A stretch of 64,000 nucleotides of DNA from Clostridiales bacterium (GTDB taxonomy: Bacteria; Bacillota; Clostridia; Saccharofermentanales; Saccharofermentanaceae), in NCBI GenBank assembly GCA_017617525.1, contig JAFZWA010000060.1, forward strand, positions 1 through 64,000, in the 5' to 3' direction. Made by a program: the position numbers and the translations under genes. Positions 27,376 through 33,221 of this stretch are shown here, piece by piece. Position 1 is the stretch's first letter; each line of letters opens with the position of its first letter. Below the pieces are notes generated by a model. It was not told the DNA's origin and searched no databases. It saw only the letters and a program-made list of their open reading frames with translations.

Positions 27376-29121
27376 TTACTTCTTCAGAAGTCCTCCGAAG
27401 AGTCCACGTACGAGGGAAGAACCAACCTGACGACCGGCAGCTGTCATCGCGGAATTCGTGATCTTGGTCAGCGGGCTGTTCTTCTTCGCGCGCTCTGCCT
27501 CGGCCTTTGCCTTAGCTTCTGCACGTTCAGCTTCTTTTCTCGCCTTTTCTTCTTCACGCTTGATGCGCTCTTCTTCTCTTCTTGCGCGGTCTTCCTGGCG
27601 CTCTCTTTCTCTCTGCTCACGAAGCTCGGCAGCGCGCTCTTTCTCTTCGATCCTGCGCTCTCTGTCTTCCTGACGGTCCTTTTCGCGCTGTTCGCGGATC
27701 TCGGCGGCACGCTCTTTCTCTGCGGCCTTTTCTTCTGCGATGCGCTCCTTTTCGGCAGCTTTCTCTTCAGCAGCAGCGGCTTTTTCTTCAGCGATCGCCT
27801 GCTTTTCTTCTTCCGCCTGAGCAGCGGCAGCGTTCGTTCCTTCGTATTTCGCCATCAGCAGTTCATAAGCGGACTCCGGATCTACAGGGAGTCTGTACTT
27901 TTCGTACAGATCGTTGGACTCGGTGACTTCCTGGATCTTCTCGAATCCGGCAGAACCGATAAAGCTCTGCGGCGGGAGGATGAAGGCGCGCTCTACGACA
28001 TTCGGTGTACCCTTCTCATCGAGGAAGGAAACGAGAGCTTCACCAACAGCCAGCTCGGAAAGAGCAGTTTCTGTATCGAAGGACGGGTTCGCGCGGAAGG
28101 ATTCCGCAGCGGCCTTGACCTTCTTCTGCTCAGCCGGTGTATAAGCACGAAGCGCGTGCTGAACACGGTTCTGGAGCTGTGCGAGGATGTTGTCCGGGAT
28201 ATCGCTCGGGCTCTGGGAAATGAAGTAAACGCCGATGCCCTTACTGCGGATCAGACGAACGATCTGATCGATCTTCTCGAGGAGGAATGCCGGAGCATCG
28301 TTAAAGAGAAGATGTGCTTCGTCAAAGAAGAATACCATCTTCGGCTTTTCCGGATCGCCGACTTCCGGCATGTTCTCATAGATCTCGGAAAGGAGCCAGA
28401 GAAGGAATGTCGAATAAAGAAGCGGCTTATTGAAAAGCTCTGTGGCGTTGAGAACATTGATCATGCCGCGGCCGTTGCTGTCGCACTTGAAGAAGTCGTT
28501 GACATCAAATGCAGGCTCGGAGAAGAAAGCTTCTGCGCCTTCGTCAGCGAGGAGAGCCAGATTTCTCTGGATCGCGCCGATCGTCGCGGTGGAGATATTA
28601 CCATAGGTGAGTTTATATTCGTCAGCGTGGTCACCGATGTAGGTGAGAAGGAGACGCAGGTCCTTGAGGTCAAGGAGCAGAAGTCCCTGATCGTCAGCGA
28701 TACGGAATACCATGGACATTACCGCGCGCTGTACATCGGAAAGACCCAGCATACGGCCGAGAAGGATCGGACCGAGCTCGGAGATGGTCGTTCTCATCGG
28801 GATACCCATCTGACCGAATACATCGTAGAAAGTGGTCGGATATGCCTTATACTCGAAATTCTCGATACCGAACTTCGCGATACGTTCCTGCATGTTTTCA
28901 TTACTTACACCTGCAGAACAGATACCGGACATATCACCTTTTACGTCAGCGAGAAATACCGGGACACCCATATCGGAGAAACTCTCAGCCATGACTTTGA
29001 GAGTTACGGATTTACCTGTACCTGTCGCGCCGGCGATCAAACCATGACGGTTCGCCTTTGAAGGCTCAATGAAGCACTTGTTGGCGGTTCCGCCTACCCA
29101 AATTTTATTATCGTAAAGCAT
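27376..29121 (-). CDS. HerA-like DNA-translocating ATPase (DUF853) with charged helical tail
   Basis: The protein (581 residues) belongs to the HerA/DUF853 helicase-like ATPases. Walker A is GATGTGKSVT near residues 30-39 and Walker B is MVFFFDEAHLLF; AFILPPQSFIG and RVQHALRAYTPAEQKKVKAAAE fit the family's C-terminal half. After about residue 430 comes a ~110-residue tail almost entirely of Glu, Arg, Lys and Ala, with a near-duplicate block ERAAE(I/L)REQRE, likely a single long helix. The last residues GSSLVRGLFGGLLKK end the family as usual. Role in DNA processing is inferred. Confidence 0.85.
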   Translation of the reverse strand: MLYDNKIWVGGTANKCFIEPSKANRHGLIAGATGTGKSVTLKVMAESFSDMGVPVFLADVKGDMSGICSAGVSNENMQERIAKFGIENFEYKAYPTTFYDVFGQMGIPMRTTISELGPILLGRMLGLSDVQRAVMSMVFRIADDQGLLLLDLKDLRLLLTYIGDHADEYKLTYGNISTATIGAIQRNLALLADEGAEAFFSEPAFDVNDFFKCDSNGRGMINVLNATELFNKPLLYSTFLLWLLSEIYENMPEVGDPEKPKMVFFFDEAHLLFNDAPAFLLEKIDQIVRLIRSKGIGVYFISQSPSDIPDNILAQLQNRVQHALRAYTPAEQKKVKAAAESFRANPSFDTETALSELAVGEALVSFLDEKGTPNVVERAFILPPQSFIGSAGFEKIQEVTESNDLYEKYRLPVDPESAYELLMAKYEGTNAAAAQAEEEKQAIAEEKAAAAEEKAAEKERIAEEKAAEKERAAEIREQREKDRQEDRERRIEEKERAAELREQRERERQEDRARREEERIKREEEKARKEAERAEAKAKAEAERAKKNSPLTKITNSAMTAAGRQVGSSLVRGLFGGLLKK

Positions 29122-29141
29122 ATTCAAACCTCCCTATCCAT

Positions 29142-29171: not shown

Positions 29172-29302
29172 AGACGGGGGATAATCGCAAGGCAATTTTA
29201 TGTAAAAGTGTCCGATAAATGAAAACGTTTTGTTACATCCGTGCATTGCCCGGACCGTATAATAGACGCAAAGTTTTCGAATGGAAAAGGAGGTGCCGAA
29301 AG

Positions 29303-30061
29303 TTGCTCGATACAGTAACCCTGATCACGTTTCTTGCGATGGGTATTCTCCTTTGTTTTTACGGCTTCCGTCTCTTCCGTTTTTCCATGGCGCTGGCCGG
29401 ATTCTTCATGGGCATGCAGGGCGCGAATCTCATGAATTCGCTCTTCCTTCTTTCGAAGATCCCGGAAAAATCCCAGAAGATGTGGGAGTTCTTTTTCCCG
29501 ATCATACTCGGTGTCGCTTTGGCGGTGCTTTCCTATGCGCTTTATAAAAAAGCACTGTTCTTCATCACGGTGTTCTTTACCTGGTATACGCTCGTAAAGA
29601 TCTGCCTTCTCTACATCATCAAGACACAGAATAATCTTTCGCTCGTGATCTCTCTTTCACCGGATTCGATCGCGAAGCTCACCGACGGCTCGGAAAACGT
29701 GCAGAACCTGATCCCGGACGACAAGCTCGCGAGTGTCATGAAATGGCTGCCCGGAGGCACCGACGGGGAGAAGCTTCTGGCGGTCTGCCTGATCGCTCTC
29801 GTGATCGGCATCTTCGTCGGCATCATCATCTGTTTGATCCAGGGCCCCGCGATCAAGATCGTCACTTCCGTCATCGGCGCGGATATCCTGCGAGATGTTT
29901 TCCTCGGATGTATGGGCATCCTTTACGAGTGGAAGAGCCTGCCGTCATTTCTTGAACCGGTGGTCAAAGCGGGACTTCATAACGGATGGGTATCGTTCTT
30001 CATATGGGCGGCGCTCATCGGCTCGGGCATTACCGTGCAGTTCAAATACGGGGATGATTAA
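29303..30061 (+). CDS. Seven-helix-type membrane protein (DUF4203-like), TTG start
   Basis: A 252-residue protein with about seven hydrophobic helices and no catalytic motif; the opening helix pair and glycine-rich LAGFFMGMQGANLM recall the DUF4203/TMEM198 family. The start is taken as TTG at 29303 because AGGAGGT lies 8 nt upstream and a TATAAT at about 29259 would place the transcript start downstream of the alternative ATG. Function unknown. It precedes the peptide/radical SAM unit by 116 bp. Confidence 0.65.
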   Translation: MLDTVTLITFLAMGILLCFYGFRLFRFSMALAGFFMGMQGANLMNSLFLLSKIPEKSQKMWEFFFPIILGVALAVLSYALYKKALFFITVFFTWYTLVKICLLYIIKTQNNLSLVISLSPDSIAKLTDGSENVQNLIPDDKLASVMKWLPGGTDGEKLLAVCLIALVIGIFVGIIICLIQGPAIKIVTSVIGADILRDVFLGCMGILYEWKSLPSFLEPVVKAGLHNGWVSFFIWAALIGSGITVQFKYGDD

Positions 30062-30177
30062 ATAGTAGACTCACTTTTCGCAAAAAAGTTCTGCTAAGGT
30101 ACAAGAAAAGTGCAACAGATCCGAGATCCGCGTCGTCTTATTTTCAGAAGCGAATAATCGCGAAGGAGACCAAGACC

Positions 30178-30645
30178 ATGAAAAAGCAACCTGTACAAAA
30201 TGCAAACAGACCGACATATCCGACTCTCTACCAGGTAAACAGCAGGACCGGTAACGTCCCGATCAAAAAGATCGCCGTTGTATCCGCGCTTACAGCTTCG
30301 ATGGCACTCATGAGCGGATGTCTCGAAGAAAACGGATCGAAAAAGAGCATGGGCCGATTCGAGAAGATGGGCGAGAAATTCGGACAACAGACCGAGACGT
30401 ATATCGAAGGTGAAATCGAGACATTAGCGACAGATGATTACGTTCTCGGGGGTGAGGCCGAGACGGTAGCTACAGATGATTACGTGCTCGCGGGCGCGGC
30501 CGATACGGAAGCGACAGACGACTACGTAGTAATGGGTGATATGGTAGAGTACACCGATGACTATGAACTCACGGGGGGAGAGACGGTAGAGACTGAATGT
30601 ACCGTATCCTACGAGATCGTCGGCGACATGTTCACCGAAGGCTGA
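30178..30645 (+). CDS. Candidate RiPP precursor with four TDDYxxxG repeats
   Basis: A 155-residue protein of unusual build. Residues 1-28 are polar (with PTYPTLYQVNSRTGNVP), then a hydrophobic stretch ends in LMSGC (Cys48), a possible lipobox, then a charged linker, then repeats: TDDYVLGG at 85, TDDYVLAG at 99, TDDYVVMG at 113 and TDDYELTG at 126, followed by a decayed TVSYEIVG. Spacings are 14, 14 and 13 residues. The next gene is a radical SAM/SPASM enzyme 37 bp downstream, so the repeats are probable sites of modification. I do not recognise a named family. AAGGAG precedes the ATG. Confidence 0.7.
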   Translation: MKKQPVQNANRPTYPTLYQVNSRTGNVPIKKIAVVSALTASMALMSGCLEENGSKKSMGRFEKMGEKFGQQTETYIEGEIETLATDDYVLGGEAETVATDDYVLAGAADTEATDDYVVMGDMVEYTDDYELTGGETVETECTVSYEIVGDMFTEG

Positions 30646-30682
30646 TATTGATCGAAAAGCACTACCCGAGGAGAATCCGGAC

Positions 30683-31795
30683 ATGGAAAAAAGTTCGACT
30701 GAAAAACTCGCGAAAAGAATTACACTGGTGGTCACTCACCAGTGTAATTTTGATTGCAGATATTGTCTTCAGAAACATGAAGATGTCTCCATGACAAAAG
30801 AGACCGCGATCAAATCGATCGATGCTTTTGCATCCGGAATCGTCGAAGGAGACAAAGCGCAGATCTCCTTTTATGGTGGTGAACCGCTCCTTCAGAAAGA
30901 ACTGATCAAAGAACTCGTGAACTATTCTTGCGAGAAGATCCTTTCGATTCCGGATACCAGACTCACTTTCGAGATCACGACCAACGGACTTCTTCTTGAT
31001 GAAGACTTCATCGCGTTCGCGAAAAGAAATAAGATCCTCCTTGCGCTTTCCCATGACGGACTTGCCCAGGATGAGGTACGAACTGACCGTGGCGGCAATA
31101 AGACGAAAGACCGCATAGACGAGAAACTTCAGATGCTCCTTAAGACATTCCCGGAGACGATCGTCATGATGACCGTGCATCCCGACTACGTCGACCGCAT
31201 CGTCGACTCTCTGAAGTTCTTCCGAAGCAAAGGAGTAAAGTCGGTAAGCATGGTGCTCGCGCACGGCGAAAGAGTCAGCTGGGATGACGAGACTTTCGAA
31301 AAACTCACGCGGGAAATGAATAAGGTAGAGGCGCTTTACGAGCAGTGGAACGCGGGTAATGATGTGTTCCGTTTCATCCCGTTCGATAACAAGATCAAGA
31401 ACTACATCCGTCAGCGTGACGCCGACAGTGTGACGTGTCATTTCGGATGCCACAAGTTCATGGTGGATGCCGACGGAAAATATTATCCGTGTTCGCACTT
31501 TATCGGAAGAGACGGATTCGGTATCGGCTCTTTGGAAGAAGGCATCAGCGAAGAAAAACTGAAGGATCTCGAAAGCAAGAGAGTGGAGCCGGAGGACTGC
31601 AAGGGATGTGCGCTCCGTTTTCGCTGCCGACACACCTGCGCGTGCAGTAATCACGGCCATACGGGAAGCATGTCGGAGGTTTCCGCGCTGCAGTGTGAGT
31701 ATGAAAAACTGACCATTCAACTGGCCGATCGGGCAGCGGCTCTGCTCCTTAACGAAAGCAACCCGGGATTCGTCTCGAGAATGTATCCGATCTGA
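30683..31795 (+). CDS. Radical SAM/SPASM peptide maturase
   Basis: The 370-residue enzyme has the radical SAM cluster motif CNFDCRYC (Cys21, 25, 28), GGEP at 65-68, and a complete SPASM pattern for auxiliary clusters: Cys256-x8-Gly-x4-Cys270, Cys306-x2-Cys309-x5-Cys315-x3-Cys319 and Cys338. This arrangement is that of enzymes which form thioether, ether or carbon-carbon links in ribosomal peptides. Its operon partner is the repeat-bearing precursor just upstream. GAGGAG precedes the start, and a terminator 34 nt after the stop closes the unit. No RRE domain, protease or exporter is visible nearby. Confidence 0.9.
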   Translation: MEKSSTEKLAKRITLVVTHQCNFDCRYCLQKHEDVSMTKETAIKSIDAFASGIVEGDKAQISFYGGEPLLQKELIKELVNYSCEKILSIPDTRLTFEITTNGLLLDEDFIAFAKRNKILLALSHDGLAQDEVRTDRGGNKTKDRIDEKLQMLLKTFPETIVMMTVHPDYVDRIVDSLKFFRSKGVKSVSMVLAHGERVSWDDETFEKLTREMNKVEALYEQWNAGNDVFRFIPFDNKIKNYIRQRDADSVTCHFGCHKFMVDADGKYYPCSHFIGRDGFGIGSLEEGISEEKLKDLESKRVEPEDCKGCALRFRCRHTCACSNHGHTGSMSEVSALQCEYEKLTIQLADRAAALLLNESNPGFVSRMYPI

Positions 31796-31828
31796 CTCTT
31801 CGAACTACACAACAAAAGACATTTTTCG

Positions 31829-31861
31829 CACTGGAAAATCGTTGTTTTTCCAGTGTTTTTT
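31829..31861 (+). terminator. Terminator of the peptide/radical SAM operon
   Basis: A perfect 10-bp stem CACTGGAAAA / TTTTCCAGTG with a 7-nt loop is followed by at least six T residues. Confidence 0.92.
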
Positions 31862-31961: not shown

Positions 31962-33221
31962 ATGCATAACATGCTTATGAGTCTTGCGCTGATGTTTTTG
32001 CTCGGCTTTTGTATCAGCGGGATTTTTAAGAAATTACATATACCGTCGCTTCTGGGACTGATCATCACAGGTATCATCCTGGGTCCTGCCGCGCTCAATC
32101 TTCTGGATACGAAGATCCTCTCGATCTCTTCCGAGCTTCGTGAGATCGCGCTTATCGTTATCCTGTTCCGCGCAGGTCTTAGTCTCGATATCAGCGACAT
32201 GAAGAAGATCGGTCGCCCGGCTATCATGCTCTGCTTTGTCCCGGCGACATTTGAGATCATCGGCGCGATCGTTTTAGGACCGATCTGTCTCGGACTTTCC
32301 CATGTCGATTCCGCGATCGTCGGCGCTATGCTGGCGGCAGCGTCCCCGGCGATCATCGTTCCGAAGATGCTGTGGCTCATGGAAGAAGGCTACGGTACGG
32401 ATAAGCATATCCCGCAGCTCATCATGGCGGGTGCTTCCGCGGACGATATCTACGCGATCGTTCTTTTCACCGCGTTTATCGGCATGAGCAAGGGCGAAGG
32501 CCTTTCCGCGTGGACGATCGTTTCCATCCCGATCTCGATCGTGACCGGTCTCGGTGTCGGTATCTTCGTCGGTATCGTTATGTCGCAGATCTTTAAGAGG
32601 ATGCACCTTCGTGACACCATCAAGATCCTTCTCCTGTTCGGTATGTCCTTCTTCTTCGTCGGAGCTGAGACATATGTTTCCAGATTTGTTCCGTTCTCCG
32701 GACTTCTCGCTGTTATGGCACTCGGCGGAACGATCCTCAACAGAAGAAAAGAAGTCGCCAACCGTCTTTCCGCGAAGATCGCGAAGATCTGGGTCGGCGC
32801 GGAGCTTTTACTTTTCATCATGCTCGGTTCTGCCGTTGAGATCAAAGCTCTTGTTTCGGCAGGTCTCGGATCTGTCGTCCTGATCCTCGGCGCGCTTTTG
32901 TTCCGTTCGGTCGGCGTTATCTTCAGCCTCTTGGGTTCCGGATTGAAGATGAAAGAGATCCTTTACTGTGATGTCGCTTATTTTCCGAAGGCGACCGTAC
33001 AGGCTGCCGTCGGTGCGATTCCGCTGGCACAGGGTCTTGCTTGTGGTATGATGGTTCTGACCACAGCCGTTCTTTCGATCCTGATCACGGCACCGCTCGG
33101 CGCGATCCTTATGGATATCACCGTAAAGAAGTGTCTGACCAGAAGCAGAAAACCGCGAGATGTTTCGGGAAGACGAAACCCGGGTCTTACGTTACCGGAG
33201 GAAGAACAGAGCTTTTCGTAG
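31962..33221 (+). CDS. Cation:proton antiporter (CPA family)
   Basis: A 419-residue membrane protein with about 12 helices of the Na+/H+ exchanger domain. Recognisable segments are HIPSLLGLIITGIILGPAAL near the N-terminus and LRPA-like FRAGLSLDISDMKK following the third helix. It should exchange Na+ or K+ for protons across the membrane. GAGGGG precedes the start. Its operon relation to the next gene is unclear (90-bp gap with no terminator). Confidence 0.88.
   Translation: MHNMLMSLALMFLLGFCISGIFKKLHIPSLLGLIITGIILGPAALNLLDTKILSISSELREIALIVILFRAGLSLDISDMKKIGRPAIMLCFVPATFEIIGAIVLGPICLGLSHVDSAIVGAMLAAASPAIIVPKMLWLMEEGYGTDKHIPQLIMAGASADDIYAIVLFTAFIGMSKGEGLSAWTIVSIPISIVTGLGVGIFVGIVMSQIFKRMHLRDTIKILLLFGMSFFFVGAETYVSRFVPFSGLLAVMALGGTILNRRKEVANRLSAKIAKIWVGAELLLFIMLGSAVEIKALVSAGLGSVVLILGALLFRSVGVIFSLLGSGLKMKEILYCDVAYFPKATVQAAVGAIPLAQGLACGMMVLTTAVLSILITAPLGAILMDITVKKCLTRSRKPRDVSGRRNPGLTLPEEEQSFS

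Follow-up and report, generated by a model that had tools for sequence, protein, structure and literature searches.

RiPP–lipoprotein hybrids, termed DAG-RiPPs (DybA/DybH, NedA/NedBC), were described in 2025 for MNIO enzymes, and further ones were suggested (Chen et al. 2025 preprint, PMC12636315). Their precursors contain a lipobox, are modified in the cytoplasm and are then lipidated through Lgt and LspA, and repeats can be the modified units, as in the EGKCG repeats of NedA. The locus presented here resembles them in its lipobox precursor, in a route of cytoplasmic modification and subsequent lipidation that is predicted from the genes, and in its repeats as candidate modified units. However, DAG-RiPPs rely on MNIO enzymes and Cys-containing motifs, whereas we find a radical SAM/SPASM enzyme and Cys-free LxG(D/E) repeats. 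Moreover, the DAG-RiPP authors expected mostly leader-independent systems (PMC12636315), in contrast to the conserved N-terminal leader motif found here. Bufferins, which are also MNIO RiPPs, have a Sec signal peptide on the precursor, a feature termed highly unusual for RiPP precursors, and about 16% of Buf2 are predicted lipoproteins; they differ from the present pair by the enzyme class and by their Cys-based copper binding (PMC12452194). Among SPASM enzymes, the PapB/freyrasin maturase (NF047865) is a peptide maturase whose substrate repeat has acidic residues, as here, but the precursor of our locus is a lipoprotein and its repeats mostly lack a Cys partner. The SCIFF maturases (TIGR03974), of which CteB is the nearest solved fold (PDB 5wgg/5why), act on a Cys-rich substrate. 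TvgB, the SPASM enzyme that makes poly-cyclopropylglycine in TvgA, resembles our enzyme in having a substrate whose repeats lack Cys and place a hydrophobic residue close to Gly, but the repeat is TVGG, the locus has its own peptidase/transporter and oxidase genes, and no lipobox is reported (PMC9062424).

In the window (the whole stretch of 64,000 nucleotides analysed), the precursor gene (30178 to 30645, forward strand, as are all features of the unit) follows the ribosome-binding site AAGGAGA, read directly at 30163 to 30169. It encodes a 155-aa lipoprotein built of leader, lipobox and repeats. The protein starts with MKKQPVQNANRPTYPTLYQVN, a leader that forms the long n-region of a signal peptide (30178 to 30258) and contains a PxYPTxxQV motif, here PTYPTLYQV, with Y14, P15 and T16. 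Two lysines and a hydrophobic stretch ending in the lipobox LMSGC come next (30259 to 30321), the last codon (30319-30321) being that of Cys48. The mature tail is acidic and Thr-rich. Gly residues 78, 91/92, 106, 120, 133 and 149 mark the (Y)x(L/I/V)xG(D/E/G/A) motifs of its repeat region (30400 to 30630), and four of these motifs include TDDY. The stop codon is separated by 37 nt from the gene for a 370-aa radical SAM/SPASM enzyme (30683 to 31795), which, according to profile, alignment and structure-model comparisons, has no RRE domain and has a family-specific CxxCx5CxxxCxCxN motif. The two-gene unit ends with an intrinsic terminator (31828 to 31856), seen as a terminator-like 11-pair stem followed by a run of T. 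The layout described in the original prediction, i.e. a 155-residue lipobox protein, a SPASM enzyme 37 bp downstream and a terminator, was thus re-found in full. Searches against Pfam, NCBIfam and PADLOC returned no family for the precursor, which bears out the earlier view that it lies outside any named family; the match with NCBIfam NF002475 (16 bits for a cut-off of 142) was dismissed as a chance match.

A 280-aa membrane protein, weakly TM7S3/TM198-like and under the Pfam cut-off, is encoded at 29219-30061 (+); in 16 loci, all within the genus, its gene directly precedes the pair. A HerA-like ATPase (27376-29127) and a Na+/H+ antiporter-type protein (31962-33221) also show synteny with the pair, again within the genus only. 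Since these three neighbours are kept beside the pair only in the genus, they were rejected as a third component. A mobile origin was rejected as well: there was no plasmid match, and viral contigs gave only SPASM relatives with 22-32% identity.

Relatives of the enzyme were sought in the taxonomic family, in the class and on contigs of public genomes. The enzyme's own family is large and distributed patchily across Clostridia, including Ruminococcus, Oscillospiraceae and Saccharofermentans-like MAGs from rumen and gut, and in one Coriobacteriia MAG. Precursor relatives are present in 22 of the 23 genomes of the window's genus, the enzyme in the same 22, and the remaining genome lacks both. 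For the linkage count, duplicate enzymes were removed and only loci whose upstream flank measured 600 nt or more were kept (n=119); most loci are from MAGs, and the two genome collections overlap. A gene with leader and lipobox was found beside 115 of the 119 distinct enzymes, the leader being mostly of the YPT or YKKPLYA type, and at 97 of the 115 loci it ends no more than about 50 nt away from the enzyme match. Two or more such genes are present at 36 loci. Two of the four misses, L139 and L095, have a precursor when inspected by eye. A few loci (L094, L200) have none in the stretch of DNA examined. The neighbour test had been devised after the sequences were read and was hence rerun on controls, with 30/30 positives in a subset of the family and 0/39 for other SPASM enzymes. 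Clustering of all neighbours revealed no third gene common to different genera. Precursor and enzyme are a real genetic unit. Homologues of the upstream gene do co-occur with the enzyme (115/119 versus 0/39), so that a lack of co-occurrence, named in the original prediction as a ground for refutation, is not what is seen.

Evolution of the precursor also points to a RiPP. Y14, P15 and the lipobox Cys (C48) are invariant across thirteen diverse leaders. Between the window precursor and its three closest relatives, dN is 0.05-0.07 in the leader versus 0.21-0.25 in the mature part, and the number of repeats varies among these four proteins. The precursor thus behaves in a RiPP-like manner, with a conserved leader and a divergent mature part. 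Together with its linkage to a modifying enzyme, this conserved leader and variable core support the earlier assignment of the pair to the RiPP type. When the whole genome was scanned with a leader profile, the window's own precursor was the one convincing match, and no further substrate was detected by this profile. In many other genera the leader has YKKPLYA or PKYAA in place of YPT; as the variants (YPT, YKKPLYA, PKYAA, YxxGY) differ by clade, the recognition motif seems to drift with the clade. The prediction of a lipoprotein product from the LMSGC stretch is also supported: a lipobox recurs in precursors at nearly all loci, and the genome has profile matches for both Lgt and LspA, so that the genes expected for a DAG-RiPP (a precursor signal peptide with lipobox and host Lgt and LspA) are all present. 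Two matches above cut-off were obtained for Lgt, the prolipoprotein diacylglyceryl transferase (G000:C37 and G000:C1, 235.7 and 104.5 bits).

The enzyme has the radical-SAM motif CxxxCxxC (C21, C25, C28) and the SPASM cysteines C252, C270, C306, C309, C315, C319 and C338, in agreement with the pattern CX9-15GX4C...CX2CX5CX3C...C (C252-x17-C270, G265-x4-C270). All of them are invariant in 69 homologues, which confirms that both cysteine patterns are complete. An extra cysteine, C321, is part of the CxxCx5CxxxCxCxN motif, which SCIFF maturases do not have: the window enzyme reads CRHTCAC where SCIFF-type enzymes have CxGGC (CxxxCxCxN versus CxGGCAAN). The NCBIfam profile search gave no equivalog, only distant models, with viperin-type models weaker. 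The best one was PapB (NF047865), with 179.6 bits, about half the cut-off of 340, whereas SCIFF maturases reach 285-300 bits on this same model. An identity with PapB was rejected on this score, on its placement in a separate clade and on the rarity of Cys near the repeats (35/330). A SCIFF maturase was rejected likewise (TIGR03974, 141.4 bits versus a cut-off of 425, CxGGC motif missing). So was an anaerobic sulfatase maturase (TIGR03942, 94.8 bits versus 349.45), the identity that the original prediction had itself named as contrary to a RiPP system. In a tree made by a quick method with two PapB rows, a branch with support 100 separates the 75 family rows from PapB and SCIFF maturases. Judged from profiles and tree, the enzyme belongs to a distinct, monophyletic SPASM family.

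The AF2 model of the enzyme (pLDDT 92.7) has the radical-SAM core right from the N-terminus and no RRE, unlike CteB, which has an N-terminal RRE domain. The nearest folds are CteB (TM 0.81), anSME and ChlB, all peptide or protein modifiers; TigE (TM 0.65) and EpeE (TM 0.46) are weaker. PqqE and SkfB use a CXC motif as ligand of their Aux I cluster, whereas in CteB one position of the cluster stays free for a Cys of the substrate (PMC6231123). By analogy, Aux I may need no substrate thiolate in the present enzyme, CxC perhaps giving a further ligand, and this would fit with Cys-free repeats.

TDDY occurs at residues 85, 99, 113 and 126 of the window precursor. These four copies with spacings of 14, 14 and 13, as originally reported, are far above what is expected by shuffling (0.008 expected in the mature sequence; none of 20,000 shuffles as high). 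However, the proposal that TDDYxxxG is the defining repeat was not borne out. Once identical precursors were removed, 128 distinct neighbouring precursors with 330 motifs were left, and in these TDDY is found in just six copies, of which the window contributes four; these counts make it a local trait of the window's lineage. In the same 128 precursors, [LIY]xG[DE] has 296 matches versus 42 expected (sd 6) in within-sequence shuffles. The conserved repeat core that can be read from the 128 precursors is (V/Y)x(L/I/Y)xG(D/E). When all Gly of the mature parts are considered, the signal is strongest for Leu at -2 (26% versus a background of 6%, z=31), and V/L/I at -4, E/D at +1, V/I at +2 and V/I at +4 are also enriched. 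Tyr, Thr and Cys do not appear to be general targets, since Tyr or Trp at -4 is a trait of the genus and the conserved part is LxG(D/E). The earlier idea of Tyr or Thr as probable targets is not supported: in 196 of the 330 motifs, none of the six residues that precede Gly is aromatic. Better candidates, although tentative ones, would be position -2 of the Gly, which is hydrophobic, and position +1, which is acidic.

Several loci show variations on this scheme. At L135, L137, L140, L156 and L165, Ruminococcus-type precursors are extended C-terminally, behind the LxG(D/E) repeats, by about 120 aa (xxYxxAFxxAGxxxxRD...VxFYDG). A single enzyme gene accompanies two to five tandem precursor genes at L080, L153, L161, L164 and L165. 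LxG(D/E) motifs are nearly missing from some of these tandem precursors, although leader and lipobox are there; what is modified may hence be defined more loosely than by the consensus.

These sequence data are best explained, with good probability, by a RiPP–lipoprotein hybrid made up of two genes. The N-terminal motif, observed within the n-region of a lipoprotein signal peptide, would double as the recognition motif. The RRE-less SPASM enzyme would, in all likelihood, bind this leader in the cytoplasm and modify the (V/Y)x(L/I/Y)xG(D/E) units located C-terminal to the lipobox. A cytoplasmic site of action is expected, as the enzyme lacks a signal peptide and depends on Fe–S clusters and SAM. 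Sec would then export the protein, Lgt would add diacylglycerol to Cys48, and signal peptidase II would cut before Cys48 and so take off the leader. As Sec, Lgt and LspA would carry out export, anchoring and leader removal, the system would need no protease or exporter of its own; this route would explain the absence of a protease or transporter nearby. The product is predicted to be a membrane-anchored, acidic, Thr-rich surface chain with several modified units, for which a structural, binding or self-protection role is likelier than that of a released antibiotic. Several points speak against the hybrid model: modification would have to outrun Sec export, the leader motif differs between clades, the neighbour test was devised after the sequences had been read (although its controls gave 0/39), a few loci (L094, L200) show no precursor, and the lipoproteins of one enzyme subclade are poor in LxG(D/E) repeats.

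As for the chemistry, a Cys-independent two-electron oxidation of about -2 Da per repeat, for example a C–C or C–O cross-link, is possible though somewhat doubtful; it would involve Leu/Ile/Tyr at -2 or Asp/Glu at +1 of the conserved Gly. The strongest sequence signal, hydrophobic residues at -4, -2, +2 and +4 of Gly, could also mean that single residues of the alternating Val/Leu/Ile are changed by epimerisation, desaturation or a TvgB-type cyclopropane formation, with no inter-residue cross-link. TvgB does modify the Val of TVGG repeats (PMC9062424), and TigE is a distant relative in structure, but position -2 can also be Tyr or Phe, which speaks against a single simple reaction on aliphatic residues, and TigE and EpeE are weaker structural matches; we regard such a change as unlikely. 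A triceptide-like three-residue cyclophane would join an aromatic residue at -4 of Gly to Leu/Ile/Val at -2. The window's genus has suitable Y-x-L sequences, position -4 being Tyr in 33% of the motifs and Trp in 9%, and [YW]x[LIV]xG[DEG] occurs 47 times versus 3 in shuffles. However, position -4 is mostly Val/Pro/Leu/Ile outside the genus, so that an aromatic-x-x conserved in every core is not what is seen (an aromatic near 134/330 motifs, and the 42% of Tyr/Trp at -4 in the genus only). The cyclophane maturase models also score low (YhhB 68 of 445 bits, AmcB 58 of 425 bits), and this link is quite unlikely.

PapB being the top NCBIfam model, and PapB joining Cys to Asp/Glu (PMC9413430), a ranthipeptide-like thioether between scattered Cys of the precursor and Asp/Glu of the repeats has also to be considered. 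We find it very improbable: Cys lies within seven residues of just 35 of the 330 motifs, 43 of the 128 precursors have no Cys after the lipobox, the enzyme scores well below SCIFF maturases on the PapB model (180 versus 285-300 bits) and forms a clade separate from PapB, and CxC, as in PqqE/SkfB, may ligate Aux I rather than leave a thiolate site. The original prediction that a thioether is unlikely as the general chemistry is consistent with these counts. Finally, the precursor could be an ordinary, unmodified repeat lipoprotein and the enzyme could act on another substrate. The precursors are longer than usual RiPP precursors, and their modification is a prediction. The linkage of 115/119 versus 0/39 in controls, the tandem precursors, the co-absence of both genes, the clade-specific substrates and the failure to find a third conserved gene nevertheless make this reading extremely improbable.

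For the RiPP–lipoprotein hybrid, the elements that are new would be the enzyme family, the repeat motif and a leader built into the signal peptide. Lipidated RiPPs are already known for MNIO enzymes, and the radical-SAM version appears new; no radical-SAM lipoprotein RiPP was found in the literature searched, where subscription papers and preprints were partly covered, so that priority is not proven. We lean slightly towards a widespread radical-SAM RiPP class of Clostridia, in which lipid-anchored surface proteins would receive a new Cys-independent LxG(D/E) modification, the leader would lie inside the signal peptide and signal peptidase II would be the leader peptidase. If this is true, lipidated RiPPs would for the first time have a radical-SAM route, which would join two pathways of protein modification so far not described in combination. 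The family escapes today's family libraries and RiPP miners because its precursors resemble ordinary lipoproteins. A Cys-free repeat substrate probably reveals new radical chemistry, and an unusual chemical group would then be present on the surface of abundant gut bacteria. Bacterial lipoproteins are sensed by host Toll-like receptors.

One enzyme subclade (L192-L199, L100-L102 and others) is paired with its own, longer type of YPT-leader lipoprotein. This second type has a YP[TKN] leader, an LPxRW segment, a lipobox, a conserved HGxGxGSxGC...LSEEEA stretch and a C-terminal LRxQVRDFxxWL helix. No Pfam and no useful NCBIfam match was obtained for the lipoprotein of L157, and its fold had no PDB match below E 0.001. 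The HGxGxGSxGC...LSEEEA stretch is poorly ordered in the structure model, which would suit a modified peptide segment. LxG(D/E) repeats are few or absent in these lipoproteins, and what the enzyme acts on may therefore be less strictly defined. The type of substrate follows the enzyme clade. The second lipoprotein type was observed at L138, L172, L157, L147 (the Coriobacteriia MAG), L195 and L100-L102, and at L138 both kinds of lipoprotein are encoded in tandem.
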